Shown here one piece after another: positions 11,551 through 17,547 of a stretch of DNA of 42,340 nt (within the stretch, counting starts at the first letter, position 1; every line of letters begins with the position of its first letter). Source of the DNA: Terriglobia bacterium. GTDB taxonomy: Bacteria > Acidobacteriota > Terriglobia > UBA7540. A program made the position numbers and the translations under genes. Where the stretch lies: positions 1-42,340 of the forward strand of contig JAIQGH010000014.1 in assembly GCA_020072655.1 (NCBI GenBank), read 5' to 3'. The notes beneath the pieces were generated by a model. It saw nothing but the letters and a program-made list of their open reading frames with translations, was not told the DNA's origin and ran no database searches.

Positions 11551-11626
11551 GCGCCTGTAGCTCAGATGGATAGAGCGCAGACTTCGAATCTGTAGGTCGG
11601 GAGTTCGAGCCTCCCCAGGCGCGCCA
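11551..11626 (+). tRNA. tRNA-Arg (anticodon TCG)
   Basis: Cloverleaf: acceptor GCGCCTG/CAGGCGC, D-stem GCTC/GAGC, anticodon stem GCAGA/TCTGT (one G-U pair), loop CTTCGAA giving anticodon TCG, T-stem GGGAG/CTCCC with loop TTCGAGC, discriminator G, encoded CCA. A20 in the D-loop and C35 fit arginine identity. At 76 nt it is one base shorter than the usual layout: the base between the D-stem and the anticodon stem (position 26) seems to be missing. Its last 39 bases are repeated at 14112-14150, marking it as an integration site. Confidence 0.92.
11588..11626 (+). repeat. Left direct repeat (attL-like, tRNA-Arg 3' end)
   Basis: Runs from the 3' side of the anticodon loop through the encoded CCA. 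It matches 14112-14150 except for one base (C at 11622 versus T) in the acceptor strand. Confidence 0.85.
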
Positions 11627-11760
11627 TAACCTGCCAGCCTGTGAGCGTTTAGGGAAGCCCATAACCTACCGAGTGGTAGGGGCCAATTCGCTCTGGCCAC
11701 CATCTGTGACCACTTCTTGGCGACCGGACGGTAGTGGCGCAGTCTACTTGAGATAGGCAA

Positions 11761-11979
11761 TCACCAGTACATTATGATGAAGTGCCCGGTGACAAAGGCG
11801 AGGGCTAGAGGAAGTCCAACGATCAGAAGGTACTGCCCAACAAAGGGCGCAGGGTCCGCAAGGTCAGCGATGTCCCCCTCATCGGACTTTTGTAGAAAAA
11901 GATAGAAGAAACCAATCAGGAATACGACCCCGAGGACGGCGGCAAGGATCATGCCTGAATCCACAGGGTTGTACCTCAT
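11761..11979 (-). CDS. Small two-helix membrane protein, unknown
   Basis: 72 aa. The first helix is about residues 9-30 (MILAAVLGVVFLIGFFYLFL), followed by an acidic linker (KSDEGDIADLADPAP), then a second helix (YLLIVGLPLALAFVTGHFI). Start ATG 11979 overlaps the stop of the upstream 90-aa gene by 4 bp (ATGA), indicating translational coupling. No family recognised. It lies within the tRNA-bounded interval. Confidence 0.6.
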   Translation of the reverse strand: MRYNPVDSGMILAAVLGVVFLIGFFYLFLQKSDEGDIADLADPAPFVGQYLLIVGLPLALAFVTGHFIIMYW

Positions 11980-12248
11980 CTGTTGACGAGGAAGTGTAGA
12001 ATGCCAGCCGCGAGTATTCCCAAACCCCAGAACGCAAAATCTTCTAGTCCGCTGCCAGCAGTTGCCTCGTCCTCGTACCGTGGGTCAAACCAGGATTCCT
12101 TGACGGCTGCGAAGACCGCCGCCGAGATCCCTCCAATAAGCGCTGCCCTATTTCCCCACAGCCAACCTGGGAGCGCTACCGACAGCGCGCCAAGCGAAGC
12201 ATGGAGCCCCTGAGCGACGGTGTTGAGGCTTAGCGTGATCTTCTCCAC
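11976..12248 (-). CDS. Small membrane protein, unknown
   Basis: 90 aa, two hydrophobic stretches (LIGGISAAVFAAV and FAFWGLGILAAGILHFL) separated by the charged segment KESWFDPRYEDEATAGSG. The pattern of a helix followed by KE-x-W-x-D-x-x-Y-E and a second helix loosely recalls small envelope or phage-related proteins, but I cannot assign it. It is coupled to the 72-aa gene by a 4-bp overlap and lies 4 bp after the 104-aa ORF, so the three probably form one transcript. Confidence 0.6.
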   Translation of the reverse strand: MEKITLSLNTVAQGLHASLGALSVALPGWLWGNRAALIGGISAAVFAAVKESWFDPRYEDEATAGSGLEDFAFWGLGILAAGILHFLVNR

Positions 12249-12252
12249 GTCT

Positions 12253-12567
12253 TTAATCTCCCACGCAGAAGCATTTCTCCCAATGAGCGCAACTTCCGTG
12301 CTGGTATTCCCCGTAGAGGCAACCTCCAGAACTCCTCGTCGCGCCGGGCCACGCGGTATTTACGCCGTGAATCGGGCACATGGACATGGACTGGCACCCC
12401 CTGCGGGGAGTGGGGTTCAGGTAAAGCGCCGTGACCGTGGTCGAAATTGCCATCAGAAGTAGAAGAATTAGACCCTTTATGGCTCCTCCAGTTAGTGCTT
12501 TTGGAACTCCCGATACTTCAACCCGCAGATTCCGGTTCTTAGTCTGAGCGCTGCTGTAGCCTGACAC
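12253..12567 (-). CDS. Small membrane-anchored Cys-rich protein, unknown
   Basis: 104 aa from a GTG start, no strong ribosome site. One membrane helix (about residues 31-50, LILLLLMAISTTVTALYL) is followed by an exposed-looking tail with seven cysteines and several histidines (CQSMSMCPIHG, GEYQHGSCAHW, CFC). The pattern could bind metal or form disulfides. First gene of the three-gene minus-strand cassette in the tRNA-bounded interval. The low number of conserved cues leaves some doubt that it is real. Confidence 0.45.
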   Translation of the reverse strand: MSGYSSAQTKNRNLRVEVSGVPKALTGGAIKGLILLLLMAISTTVTALYLNPTPRRGCQSMSMCPIHGVNTAWPGATRSSGGCLYGEYQHGSCAHWEKCFCVGD

Positions 12568-12810
12568 CTATTTATGCGAGAGTCAACCTTGGCAGGTGCT
12601 TACGTTCCACGGTTTCGAGAATCGGAGAAACTTCGCACTTGGAGCTTCAGCAGCTATGGCAAGGCCGGAGGGGACCCCTTGCGCCCAGCCGGATAGGGCC
12701 TTGTAACTCCCCTTTCAATCCGTTATTGTGGCCCGGCAATCCTGATCGCGAATGCGCCAGGTGAGGTTCATCCCGGAATGGCAGGATCCAAAGCAAAGGG
12801 GGACATGATC

Positions 12811-14034
12811 ATGTCAGTCGAAAAGAGTATTCATCGTCGCGAGTTCCTGGTAACTACCGCCGGCGTGCTGGCCAGCACGGTCACTTCTGCTTGCCGCGCC
12901 GCGACCGCCGAGGAAATCGAGCAGGCCGCGGCCAAGGTGGGCAAGCTGCCACGGCGCAAGCTGGGCAACACAGGGAGAGACGTCACGGTCCTGGTGGGCG
13001 CGGGCACTTGGAATAGCGATGGCATTGAAGCGGCCATCCGTTGCGGCGTCAACTACTGGCACAAGGCAGACGAGTGGGGTGGCCGAGTCCCACCGGCCAT
13101 CCTCAAGAACCGCGAAGCGCACTATTGCCAGGTGTGCGTCGATCGGGCGTATGGCAATCACGAGACGGGTAGGATCGACGAGGAGGCCCACTATCAATTC
13201 GTAAAGAAAGCTCTGGCCAAGACCGGTCTTCGCTACTTTGACGACATGCAGTTCCACTTTGGTTTCCACAACGCCGCGGAGGTGAAAAACGAACATGGTT
13301 TCTTGCGCGCCTTCGAGCGGCTGAAGAAGGAAGGCTTAGTGCGGCATCTTTGCCTCTCCCAGCATCACTACGGCGGCAATTCGCGCGTTGAGAGCGGGCA
13401 GAACGCCGCCGAGATCCTGACTGCGGTTATTGATGACGGGGTCTTCGAGCACGCTCAGTTCTGGTATTCCTACGGCGAAACTGACCCCATGCAGCAATGG
13501 GTAAACATGGCGCGACGCAAGGGCTTCGGCACCATCGCCATGAAGACTATGCGCGGCGCGGGGCGCATGAAGGCAGATCGCGAATTCATGAAGAACCTCC
13601 CTTCCGGCACTACGCCGCATCACGCGTTGGCTCGATGGCTGACGACGGCTACCGAACTTGATGCCGCCGTCGTTGAAATCAACAATCTGGACCAGTTCGT
13701 CGATACGTTCTCCGGCGCGGGTAAGCCTCTGCGAACCATGGACAGCAGGGGCATCGAACAGATGGCGGCTTATGCGAACCGCGAAGTCTGCCGACTGTGT
13801 AACGAATGCGCCAGCCACTGCCCGCAGGGAATCTCCGTCGCGGATATTCTCCGCTACGAGCGCTACGCACAGGATTACGGCGAAGGCCTGCGTGCCCGCG
13901 TTCTCTATGCCATGCTCGACCGCCAAGGCGACTCGTGCATCGCTTGCGGGGATTGCCTTCCGCATTGTCCCCAGGAACTTGATATACCCCGCAAGCTGGC
14001 TGAGTCGCACCGGCTCCTGGTAACAAGGGGCTAG
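12811..14034 (+). CDS. Tat-exported aldo/keto reductase-like protein with two [4Fe-4S] motifs
   Basis: 407 aa. Twin-arginine leader (SIHRREFLVTTAG, with RR at residues 9-10), then a TIM-barrel aldo/keto-reductase fold (KLPRRKLGNTGRDVTVL at about 45-61) and a C-terminal ferredoxin-like part with cysteines 327/330/333/337 and 376/379/382/386, enough for two [4Fe-4S] clusters. It should be folded in the cytoplasm and exported. The usual AKR D-x-x-x-x-Y-G segment reads HKADEWGG here, so the catalytic tyrosine appears replaced by tryptophan, while His (QFHFGFHN) and Lys (IAMKTM) candidates remain; activity is uncertain. ATG 12811 has AAGGGGG eight bases upstream; ATG 12805 and 12778 are in-frame alternatives. 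A second Tat leader starts 29 bp after the stop. Confidence 0.88.
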   Translation: MSVEKSIHRREFLVTTAGVLASTVTSACRAATAEEIEQAAAKVGKLPRRKLGNTGRDVTVLVGAGTWNSDGIEAAIRCGVNYWHKADEWGGRVPPAILKNREAHYCQVCVDRAYGNHETGRIDEEAHYQFVKKALAKTGLRYFDDMQFHFGFHNAAEVKNEHGFLRAFERLKKEGLVRHLCLSQHHYGGNSRVESGQNAAEILTAVIDDGVFEHAQFWYSYGETDPMQQWVNMARRKGFGTIAMKTMRGAGRMKADREFMKNLPSGTTPHHALARWLTTATELDAAVVEINNLDQFVDTFSGAGKPLRTMDSRGIEQMAAYANREVCRLCNECASHCPQGISVADILRYERYAQDYGEGLRARVLYAMLDRQGDSCIACGDCLPHCPQELDIPRKLAESHRLLVTRG

Positions 14035-14062
14035 AGACCGGAACCTGATTCGAGAAGTCAAT

Positions 14063-14119
14063 ATGGAGATAACGGATTTGTCGCGCAGGGATCTCCTGCG
14101 CGCAGCCGGCTATCTGTAG
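14063..14119 (+). pseudogene. Truncated 5' end of a Tat-exported protein gene
   Basis: ATG 14063 opens an 18-codon frame, MEITDLSRRDLLRAAGYL-stop, which is a textbook twin-arginine n-region (S-R-R-D-L-L) cut off just as the hydrophobic region should begin. The cut coincides with the right tRNA-Arg repeat (from 14112), whose bases supply the TAG stop. It lies 29 bp after the aldo/keto reductase stop, so it was probably the next gene of that operon. Confidence 0.6.
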
Positions 14120-14150
14120 GTCGGGAGTTCGAGCCTCCCCAGGCGTGCCA
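14112..14150 (+). repeat. Right direct repeat (attR-like, tRNA-Arg 3' fragment)
   Basis: 38 of 39 bases identical to 11588-11626, including the T-arm and CCA, but without the 5' half of the tRNA. It interrupts the Tat-leader ORF that starts at 14063. Confidence 0.85.
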
Positions 14151-14627
14151 GCCACACGCCAGCCCGCAGAACAACTCGCAAGACCGATACCCTCCGGGGA
14201 CATTGGCTGATGGTCTAATTGTAGACTAACCTAAATGTGATCAGTGGAGCGTCAGGGAATTTCCAGATCTGCTTGGGCGACGCGACCCCTTTATCGAGCT
14301 GACCCCGCTTTAAACTTGACGGTAGGCCTCCGACGGTGGCCAAACAGGCTGCCGTTTTTCGCTGCCTTGCCCTCGCGCTTTGGGTGCTTTGGGCGTTTTC
14401 GGTCGCCTCCGCGGCGCCTCTGATCCTCCATCGGTTGCACTGACCCTGCCGCCAACCAGAGCCCCGCCTCGCTTCCTTTAGGTGTGGCGATTTTCCCCAC
14501 TTTATTGCGCAGATAGACGAAGTGCCCTGGGCAAATCTCTTCGGTGCTTCAACCGAACGGAAGAGCCCATCCAGGAACTTATCTCGCCCTGTCGAACGCG
14601 GCAGGCGGTTGGGACAAGGAGCCTTCC
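14151..14627. other. Unassigned interval after the tRNA repeat
   Basis: 477 bp between the right tRNA repeat and the efflux pseudogene. A minus-strand frame stays open through most of it, but its product is Arg/Gln-rich and of low complexity with no motif I recognise. A short perfect inverted repeat, GTCTA-ATTG-TAGAC, lies at about 14213-14226. I see no convincing gene. Confidence 0.5.
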
Positions 14628-15241
14628 ATGAAGAGCTCAGTCGCGCCCGGTGGCGCTGAATCCCTCGCTTCCGCCGGATTGGCACTCCTTTGCCTCCTGA
14701 CCATAAACTGCACGCGCGAAGCCCAGGTTGATGCCGGGACGTCCGACACACAAACCGTCAAGGGCCGATCGTCCAGGTCCGCGCTCCTCGGTCCGGCACC
14801 ATCGTCGAGCAGAATGTCAAGGGCGGAACGGGGGTGCGCTCGATCGACAACTCCCCCAACCTTTTCACCATTGCGGATCTCTCGCGGGTCTGGGTGCTCT
14901 GCGACGTCTATGCGTACCAACTGCCGCAAGTGCGGCTAGGAGACTTTGCCGACGTGCGCTTGAACGCGTACCCGGACCGGGTGTTGCGCGGGCGAGTAAG
15001 CAACATCGCCCGCGTGCTCGACGCCACCACCCGCACCGCCAAGGCGCGCCTGGAATTGGACAACAGCAGCCGTCTGATGCGCGTGGGCATGTTCGCCACC
15101 GCCACCTTCCGCTCCGAGAGCCCCGAGTCGCGCGCCGTCGTGCCGGCCACCGCCATCCTCCGATTGCATGACAAGGACTGGGTTTTCCGGCCCGCCGGCG
15201 GGCGTCGGTTTCAGCAATTGGAAATCCAGGCCGGGGCCTGA
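14628..15241 (+). pseudogene. RND efflux membrane-fusion lipoprotein (CusB/CzcB-like), internally deleted and frameshifted
   Basis: ATG 14628 has AAGGAG six bases upstream and begins an intact lipoprotein leader (hydrophobic LALLCLLTIN followed by Cys). After about 45 codons the frame is lost near 14757. The family's C-terminal part resumes in another frame: VRAPRSGTIVEQNVKGG (lipoyl half), LFTIADLSRVWVLCDVY, and RTAKARLELDN with VGMFATATFRS (beta-barrel), ending LEIQAG. The central hairpin and first lipoyl half (about 150-200 residues) are missing. The gene should have linked an inner-membrane RND pump to an outer-membrane channel for metal export, but cannot encode a working protein as read. 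Confidence 0.8.
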
Positions 15242-16232
15242 TGCAAAACGTGGATGACATCGGCGCCACCCTCCTCAAGGCCCAGGCAGGGACACCGGTG
15301 AGGGTCCGCTATGTGGCCACGGTCACTGAGGGGCCGAGGATCCGTCTGGGCAAGCTCGGCAAGGCCATCCACCGCGAGGACGGGCAGGTCATCGATGACG
15401 ACGTCGTGGAAGGCATTGTGCTCTTGCGCAAAAATGCCGAGGCTGACTCGGTCCTCGATGCTCTCCACGAAAAGGTAAGGTACCTCAACAAATACATCCT
15501 TCCGCCCGGGGTAAAACTTGTGCCGTACCTCGACCGCAGCGATCTGGTGCGATACACCACGCACACCGTCCCGCGCAATTTGGGGGCAGGCATCGCCTTG
15601 GTGGCCATCGTTCTGTTCGTCTTTCTGGGCAACCTGCGGAGCGCCTTAATCGTCGCGCTCACCATTCCCTTCTCGCTGCTTTTTGCTTCGATACTGCTCG
15701 ACCTGCGACACATCCCCGCCAATCTCCTTTCCCTCAGTGCCCTGGACTTCGGCATGGTCGTGGACGGGCGCTTGACTCGTTCAAGTGGTGTTTCCTGATT
15801 CGGATGACCCTGAGCATGGCCCCGATCGGCGGCCTCCTGGCCCTTCTGATTTCCGGCACCCGCTTCAGCGTGTCATCCGCCATCGGCTCTCTAGCCCTGT
15901 TCGGAGTTTCTGTGCAGACCGGCCTAATCATGCTGGAGTATATCAACGGCACCCGTGGGCGAGGCCGAAGCGGCGTGGAAGCAGTCCTCGAAGGATCGGT
16001 GATGGGACTGCGGCCAACCAGCATCACCATGGTGGTCGCCACACTGGGGCTCCTGCCGGCGGCGCTCTCCCACGATATCGGCTCGGACTCGCAACGGCCC
16101 TTCGCCATCGTCATCGTGGGAGGACTCATCACCGACCTGCTGTTCAGCGTCTTCCTCCTGCCAACGCTCTACGTCTGGATTGCGCGGTCCGGCGACAAGC
16201 TGCCTCCCGCCGAGACGGTTTCGGAAGATTGA
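15241..16232 (+). pseudogene. Heavy-metal RND transporter (CusA/CzcA-like), remnant with large deletions
   Basis: Two pieces of a protein normally about 1,030 aa long. Piece one (15241-about 15775) matches roughly residues 240-415: DDIGATLLKAQAGTPVRVRDVA-type porter segment, LPPGVKLVPYLDRSDLV, a membrane helix, then the TM4 motif LDFGMVVDG. Piece two (from about 15776 in another frame to 16232) matches the last 170 residues: MAPIGGLLALLISG, SLALFGVSVQTGLIMLEYINGTR, GLRPTSITMVVATLGLLP and a terminal helix. The N-terminal 240 residues and about 450 central residues are gone. Its ATG overlaps the stop of the MFP remnant (TGATG), but this overlap is itself a deletion product because neither protein is complete there. 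Confidence 0.85.
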
Positions 16233-16238
16233 GAGTCC

Positions 16239-16409
16239 CGGTAGTGTCCTGGTTTGGAACGTAGCGCCGGGCTTCGGTTCGACTTCGCCCCTCGGCTTTG
16301 CTCGGGGCCCTGAGCTTGTCGAAGGGCTCACCGCCCCGAGACTGCCGAGGGGCAGCCCGGCATTCGCCCTGATGAGTCGGGGCGCTACATTCCAATTACG
16401 ACACTACCG
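16239..16409. repeat. 171-bp element with 29-bp imperfect terminal inverted repeats
   Basis: Left arm 16239-16267 (CGGTAGTGTCCTGGTTTGGA...) and right arm 16381-16409 (...ACGACACTACCG) are imperfect reverse complements, about 25 of 29 positions. The interior is GC-rich and itself partly palindromic (gtagcgccgggc...). No ORF spans it. It resembles a MITE or long palindromic repeat and starts 7 bp after the decayed RND gene. Confidence 0.65.
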
Positions 16410-16751
16410 TCCAGTGAGCAGCGGGCGCTCATCTTGCGGAAACCTGTTCACCTACATAGGCAAGCTATGTAGGCTAAAATCTTCCTGCCAGCGGCTGGAC
16501 CGAATTCGTTGGCACGGCACTAGGCTAGAAAGACCGCTGGCGCCTGTTTCAGGCTACCTATTGTCAGTCCTGGCAATTCCCTGCTTCCCATCATCCCCAG
16601 CCTTGACGCCGGTCAACCTGGGTTCCGCAAGGATCAGGCGTTTGCCCAGGTCGGTATCCGGCATCGTCCCCCCCTCGATTCCGAGGTTTACCTTATTGTC
16701 AAAGCCTTTCCAGTGTCGCATTCTCAACCTAAATTCGTCGGGGGTGACGCC
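16410..16751. other. Intergenic region upstream of the lysozyme-like gene
   Basis: 342 bp. It holds a perfect 9-bp inverted repeat (16451-16473). A perfect sigma-54 -24 half-box (TGGCACG) lies near 16511 but without a correctly spaced GC. No convincing ORF. Confidence 0.5.
16451..16473. promoter_or_regulatory. Perfect 9-bp inverted repeat (hairpin or operator)
   Basis: CCTACATAG-GCAAG-CTATGTAGG, arms fully complementary with a 5-nt spacer, followed by an A-rich run (ctaaaatctt). It is AT-richer than its surroundings. It could be a repressor site for the downstream gene or a hairpin for an upstream transcript. Confidence 0.4.
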
Positions 16752-17372
16752 ATGGAAGGTGACGACGGCTGCGGGCAAGAAGATGACGACCGGCGACTGA
16801 TGCGGCGTATCTATTACCTGTGGGATGAGGCCATCCGGGACGCCTGCCGCTGGTCCTCGGTCCCGGCGGAATTCCTCGCCACGCTGATTGCCAACGAATC
16901 CGGCGGCGAACCTGGCCGGACGCAATTCCAACCTCAACTCTATCGAGGCCTGCTGGCCGTCCGGAGTGGCGAGCGGTTGCACTATGCGACGGTCACGCGA
17001 GAGGACCTCCGGGTGGTAAAGGACGAACAGCTCATGGAGTACGCTGCCACCTATGGGCTGACACAAATCATGGGCTGCCAAGTCCTGCGCGACCGCGTCT
17101 CACCCCACCGCCTGCTCGAACCCGAGTTGAATCTCCGCAAGTCGCTTCAGTTGCTGGCTATCTTCGCCGAGTATTGCCAGCTAGATTTAGGTACGGAGTT
17201 CGAGGAATTGCTGCGCTGCTGGAACACCGGGCGGCCCGACGGCGTCACCGCGGATCCCGAATACGTTCAAAACGGGCTGCGGCGGATGGCCATCTATCGG
17301 GAGTTCAGTCGCCCCATGGCGGCCACCACACGAGCGGAGCTTGCGGCCCCCGTCCCGGCCGCCGTGCCTTAG
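16752..17372 (+). CDS. Lysozyme-like / lytic transglycosylase-related protein
   Basis: 206 aa from ATG 16752 (GGGGTGA about six bases upstream). The core resembles an SLT/lysozyme-like fold: helix with VPAEFLATLIANESGGEPG (catalytic-type Glu in NESGG), then YAATYGLTQIMG, equivalent to the conserved GLMQIM-type motif, then RCWNTGRPDGV and DPEYVQNGLRRMAIY, matching the late N-x-G...Y motifs. No signal peptide or membrane helix is visible, so if it cleaves peptidoglycan its export is unexplained; phage-like lysozymes often lack one. The Pro/Ala-rich C-terminus (AAPVPAAVP) is low complexity. It stands alone between the efflux remnant and the regulators. Confidence 0.65.
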   Translation: MEGDDGCGQEDDDRRLMRRIYYLWDEAIRDACRWSSVPAEFLATLIANESGGEPGRTQFQPQLYRGLLAVRSGERLHYATVTREDLRVVKDEQLMEYAATYGLTQIMGCQVLRDRVSPHRLLEPELNLRKSLQLLAIFAEYCQLDLGTEFEELLRCWNTGRPDGVTADPEYVQNGLRRMAIYREFSRPMAATTRAELAAPVPAAVP

Positions 17373-17547
17373 GAAGCCCCCCTGCCGCCTCCGGTACTCC
17401 CCTGCCTCAACGCCGGGCAACGCCGGCTTGCCGTGTGCCATGACGCTTCGCCAGTTTCAGCCAAGGGCAGGCGCACGGATCGTGGACCGCTGTCTCAAAA
17501 TACCTTGGATAACGGGGTAGCGAGGGGTCAGAACGAACCGCGGCTGA

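Follow-up and report, generated by a model that had tools for sequence, protein, structure and literature searches.

A 2.5-kb island at a tRNA-Arg(TCG) gene is probably a decayed element that has lost its own integrase

How did a segment flanked by a tRNA gene and a copy of that gene's 3' end come to lie in a chromosome when no integrase open reading frame is found in it? In the window, that is, the whole stretch of 42,340 bp analyzed here, tRNA-Arg(TCG) and its repeat copy enclose an island of 2.5 kb, with a G+C content of about 57-59% against about 60-63% for most of its surroundings. We put at roughly 0.85 the probability that this is a decayed tRNA island, which lost its own integrase by deletion and then probably underwent a second deletion at attR. 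The features on which the argument turns are the following.

11551-11626, plus strand: tRNA-Arg(TCG), the regenerated target, whose 3' 39 bp (11588-11626) form the attL copy (ARAGORN, repeat pair).
11666-11725, minus strand: tail of a deleted tyrosine-integrase gene, the last 19 codons, GRQEVVTDGGQSELAPTTR, and the stop (DNA matches, shared frame and stop).
11976-12248, minus strand: small ORF of 90 aa with no family match, membrane-protein-like judging from its sequence (ORF list, profile search).
12253-12567, minus strand: small ORF of 104 aa with no confident family match, of uncertain status as a gene (ORF list, profile search).
12778-14034, plus strand: Tat-type aldo/keto reductase with a C-terminal 4Fe-4S dicluster domain, 418 aa, intact cargo (Pfam, orthologs, substitutions by codon position).
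14063-14119, plus strand: truncated Tat-leader ORF of 18 codons, MEITDLSRRDLLRAAGYL, with its stop inside the right repeat (sequence).
14112-14150, plus strand: attR copy, the displaced original tRNA-Arg 3' end, 38/39 identical (repeat pair, shuffles).

The repeat reported in the preliminary description, in which the last 39 bp of tRNA-Arg(TCG) recur at 14112-14150, is borne out: the two copies agree at 38 of 39 positions with a spacing of 2524, and the 30-bp core has exactly two matches in the 42 kb and none in 100 dinucleotide shuffles. Further copies were absent from the window even with three mismatches allowed. An intact tRNA at one end and a displaced fragment at the other are the arrangement of a tRNA-bounded genomic island, and the pair is the usual attL/attR of a tRNA-integrating element. 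The tRNA itself (11551-11626) measures 76 nt, versus 77 nt in its orthologs within the family; it has one G fewer, at the junction of the D and anticodon stems (GAGCGCAGA versus GAGCGGCAGA in the orthologs). The tRNA may be weakened, or the assembly may be wrong at this point.

Of the cargo, the reductase gene is intact. It matches Pfam Fer4_9 above the cut-off and Aldo_ket_red below it (E 2e-4), has orthologs at 60-71% in six other genomes of the family, and differs from the G018 ortholog by 83, 67 and 218 substitutions at the first, second and third codon positions, respectively, with the third position predominant. The two small minus-strand ORFs gave no confident match to phage families. 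To the right of the island, at 14834-16232, lie remnants of a metal-type RND efflux pump, namely a partial HlyD/CusB adaptor and two AcrB-type pump pieces between which about 490 model residues are absent. The source genome (G000) also holds a second tRNA island, L089 (G000:C50, 335-11839). It comprises tRNA-Met(CAT) (335-409), overlapped by an integrase fragment on the minus strand (346-861), a copy of the tRNA 3' end around 11799-11850 and, towards the right end of the island, an aldo/keto-reductase-like gene.

The element's own integrase has left a trace beside attL. Positions 11649-11723 match G043:C245, from another genus, with 84% identity over 75 bp (E 1.5e-16); that match too lies directly behind tRNA-Arg(TCG), and reads NRREVVSDGGQSELAPTNR before its stop, an equally decayed tail. 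Positions 11662-11723 have a counterpart in G043:C586 (81%, 62 bp, E 2e-8), at the 3' end of an integrase gene that is located beside tRNA-Lys(CTT), ends in NRQEVVTDGGQQENALPDGRLSMPVTVTK and a stop, and is cut by the contig end. Frame and stop are shared with these counterparts, and 16 of 20 codons, the stop included, are identical. Matching DNA at the end of the integrase of G012 (ASQKVVTDGGYSQNA...) lies at a like distance from the tRNA, 70 versus 71 bp. The evidence is a short sequence of 19 codons and a stop, and tblastn of the island and right flank gave no convincing integrase fragment beyond it. Since this tail matches the integrase ends of relatives, we infer that an integrase gene formerly belonged to the element and was later removed by a deletion. 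The earlier statement that no recombinase is present was thus correct as to an integrase ORF, but it overlooked the tail at 11666-11725. As the island encodes only these 19 codons of an integrase, we class it as a decayed remnant. An inverted repeat, CCTACC-N4-GGTAGG (11665-11680), overlaps the integrase stop codon; G043:C245, G043:C586 and G009:C113 have it in identical or almost identical form, and it may be a terminator stem or an arm site for the integrase.

A single ancestral integration shared by G000 and G043 through inheritance is disfavored, as nucleotide identity between the two is 84% for the relic, compared to 57-61% for the neighboring genes. Two separate integrations of related elements are likelier, given that the relic is more similar than its neighbors.

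Other members of this acidobacterial family show that elements have integrated at tRNA-Arg(TCG) again and again, making it a hotspot. Immediately 3' of the orthologous tRNA, G011, G012 and G005 carry integrases: in G012:C85 and G011:C186 the genes, of the same subfamily as the tail, end at most 10 bp from the tRNA, while in G005:C57 a third integrase type reads into it. Detached tRNA 3' copies occur in five other genomes (G005, G009, G044, G048 and G054). These observations uphold the preliminary view of a tRNA-site island surviving as a remnant, and the repeat pair, the tail and the relatives' integrases of this subfamily beside the orthologous tRNA together show insertion at tRNA-Arg(TCG). 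The suggested search for the uninterrupted locus and for larger islands yielded an unrepeated tRNA in one relative and no larger island. In G001, of the same genus, the upstream genes are syntenic and the tRNA-Arg is intact, followed by a glycosidase-like gene (putative GH31, by inspection), and no tRNA repeat was present in the 3 kb covered downstream; as an uninterrupted site, G001 thus offers an unrepeated tRNA over those 3 kb only, and its right flank is not in common with the window. No convincing homology was seen between the right flank of the island (14151-17540) and the DNA that follows tRNA-Arg in relatives, and a larger form of the same island was found in none of the relatives examined, so that both deletions are deduced from the missing parts.

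Several other arrangements were noted at this tRNA. G003 has a decayed tRNA-Arg 5' half with syntenic upstream genes (L083, G003:C196, 9972-10066) and, on a second contig, an intact tRNA-Arg (L076, G003:C150, 9874-10002), with 95 bp (94%) in common, promoter side included, as if an element inserting on the 5' side had supplied a new 5' half together with a new promoter. G019 and G054 have an integrase upstream of this tRNA, with the same orientation. In G009, tRNA-Arg(TCG) is present only as two pieces on different contigs (L082, G009:C321, 2356-2398; L081, G009:C113, 1986-2031), which overlap by 12 bp in the anticodon loop, and decayed integrase-tail-like sequence follows the 3' piece. To the left of the displaced 3' copies (L183, L184, L081, L185), G048 and G054 have similar DNA, with partial similarity in G009 and G044; this resemblance suggests one element family with a conserved right end.

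The tail bears directly on whether the island was inserted in trans, as an integrase-less element using the integrase of another. The lack of an integrase ORF would suit such an origin, as would the presence in the genome of at least 10 further matches to tyrosine recombinases that exceed the Pfam cut-off. However, the tail sits at the position and on the strand of the relatives' integrase gene, showing that the element had an integrase of its own, and no integrase of the tail's subfamily was detected elsewhere in G000 at E<=1e-20. Movement in trans, one of the origins first proposed, is therefore very improbable.

How the right end was formed is less clear-cut. It had been claimed that a Tat-protein gene was severed exactly at the repeat. 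The leader ORF, which begins MEITDLSRRDLLRAAG, looks genuine: its ATG, preceded by GAGAAG, follows the reductase stop at a distance of 28 bp, it carries a canonical SRRDLL motif, and its stop falls within the repeat. A search for the intact gene in reductase neighborhoods, as had been advised, found a Tat gene behind the reductase at one of 12 orthologous loci (L104, a DUF362 protein), whereas the other 11 lack one immediately after the reductase gene, and one of these loci stops 85 bp beyond it; the exact leader motif is present in the window only among 61 genomes, being absent from all 60 relatives. It is therefore possible, if somewhat doubtful, that no gene was severed at all, the Tat-like ORF having already been a fragment by attP or arising by chance, and the 39-bp repeat being the native att core of the integrase; the G011 and G012 elements, of the same integrase subfamily, have no known attR. 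Against this stand the features of the leader, the Tat gene at L104 and the length of the right repeat, which is shorter than the five others in the family: it starts at tRNA position 38 rather than 29-31, that is, 7-9 bp later. It also lacks the sequence that precedes the copies of G048 and G054 (and partly those of G009 and G044). The late start and this absence fit a second deletion, with its junction within ATCTG, that probably brought attR up against codons 16-18 of the Tat gene. Such a deletion could in principle have been made by the element's own integrase, by recombining attR with a secondary core-like site in the Tat gene and leaving the DNA between as a circle. The end of the Tat gene does coincide exactly with the core's left edge, and GCGCAG-N6-ATCTG left of the core resembles GCGCAG-N7-ATCTG in the tRNA, but the presumed overlap sequences differ (CCGGCT versus ACTTCGA) and the five-base ATCTG match suffices for an ordinary microhomology deletion; we consider the integrase-made version unlikely. 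If it is true, islands would be trimming themselves by site-specific deletion, with genes cut precisely at the core. The earlier idea of a deletion across a larger island accordingly fits both the integrase loss and the truncated Tat gene, and its site-specific form remains a proposal.

Under our reading of a decayed island, an element with its own tyrosine integrase inserted at the 3' part of tRNA-Arg(TCG), supplying the tRNA 3' end now at 11588-11626 and displacing the original one to 14112-14150. Later, judging by homology, a deletion removed the integrase gene except for the 19 codons and stop next to attL. A second deletion, with an endpoint in the short ATCTG match, probably then fused codons 16-18 of the Tat gene to attR. 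The presumed outcome is an immobile 2.5-kb scar with one intact cargo gene; excision to a circle is not expected of an island with no integrase.

The apparently integrase-free, tRNA-bounded island is thus explained as a decayed one, an ordinary kind of genome scar, and even a short stretch of integrase sequence next to a tRNA can betray remnants of a kind that finders demanding an integrase would throw out. Islander, which catalogs genomic islands in tRNA genes, has such a requirement (PMC4383910). Like the window's island, Islander islands have a complete tRNA at one end and a displaced 3' fragment at the other, and the integrase lies by the regenerated tRNA, as it does in the relatives examined here; unlike the Islander islands, the window's island is 2.5 kb long and has the 19-codon integrase tail only. 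Partial tRNA genes left by mobile-element integration have also been described (PMC9897764), and the partial tRNA copy here is an integration scar of this type, although the published example PYG1 spans about 21 kb between 44-bp repeats, compared to 2.5 kb and a decayed state here. There is likeness, too, to the integrases of G012:C85, G011:C186 and G043:C586, which form one subfamily with 60-65% mutual identity, have the gene end beside a tRNA and share the tail motif VVT(D/E)GG; there the integrase gene is present, whereas in the window's island only its tail is left.
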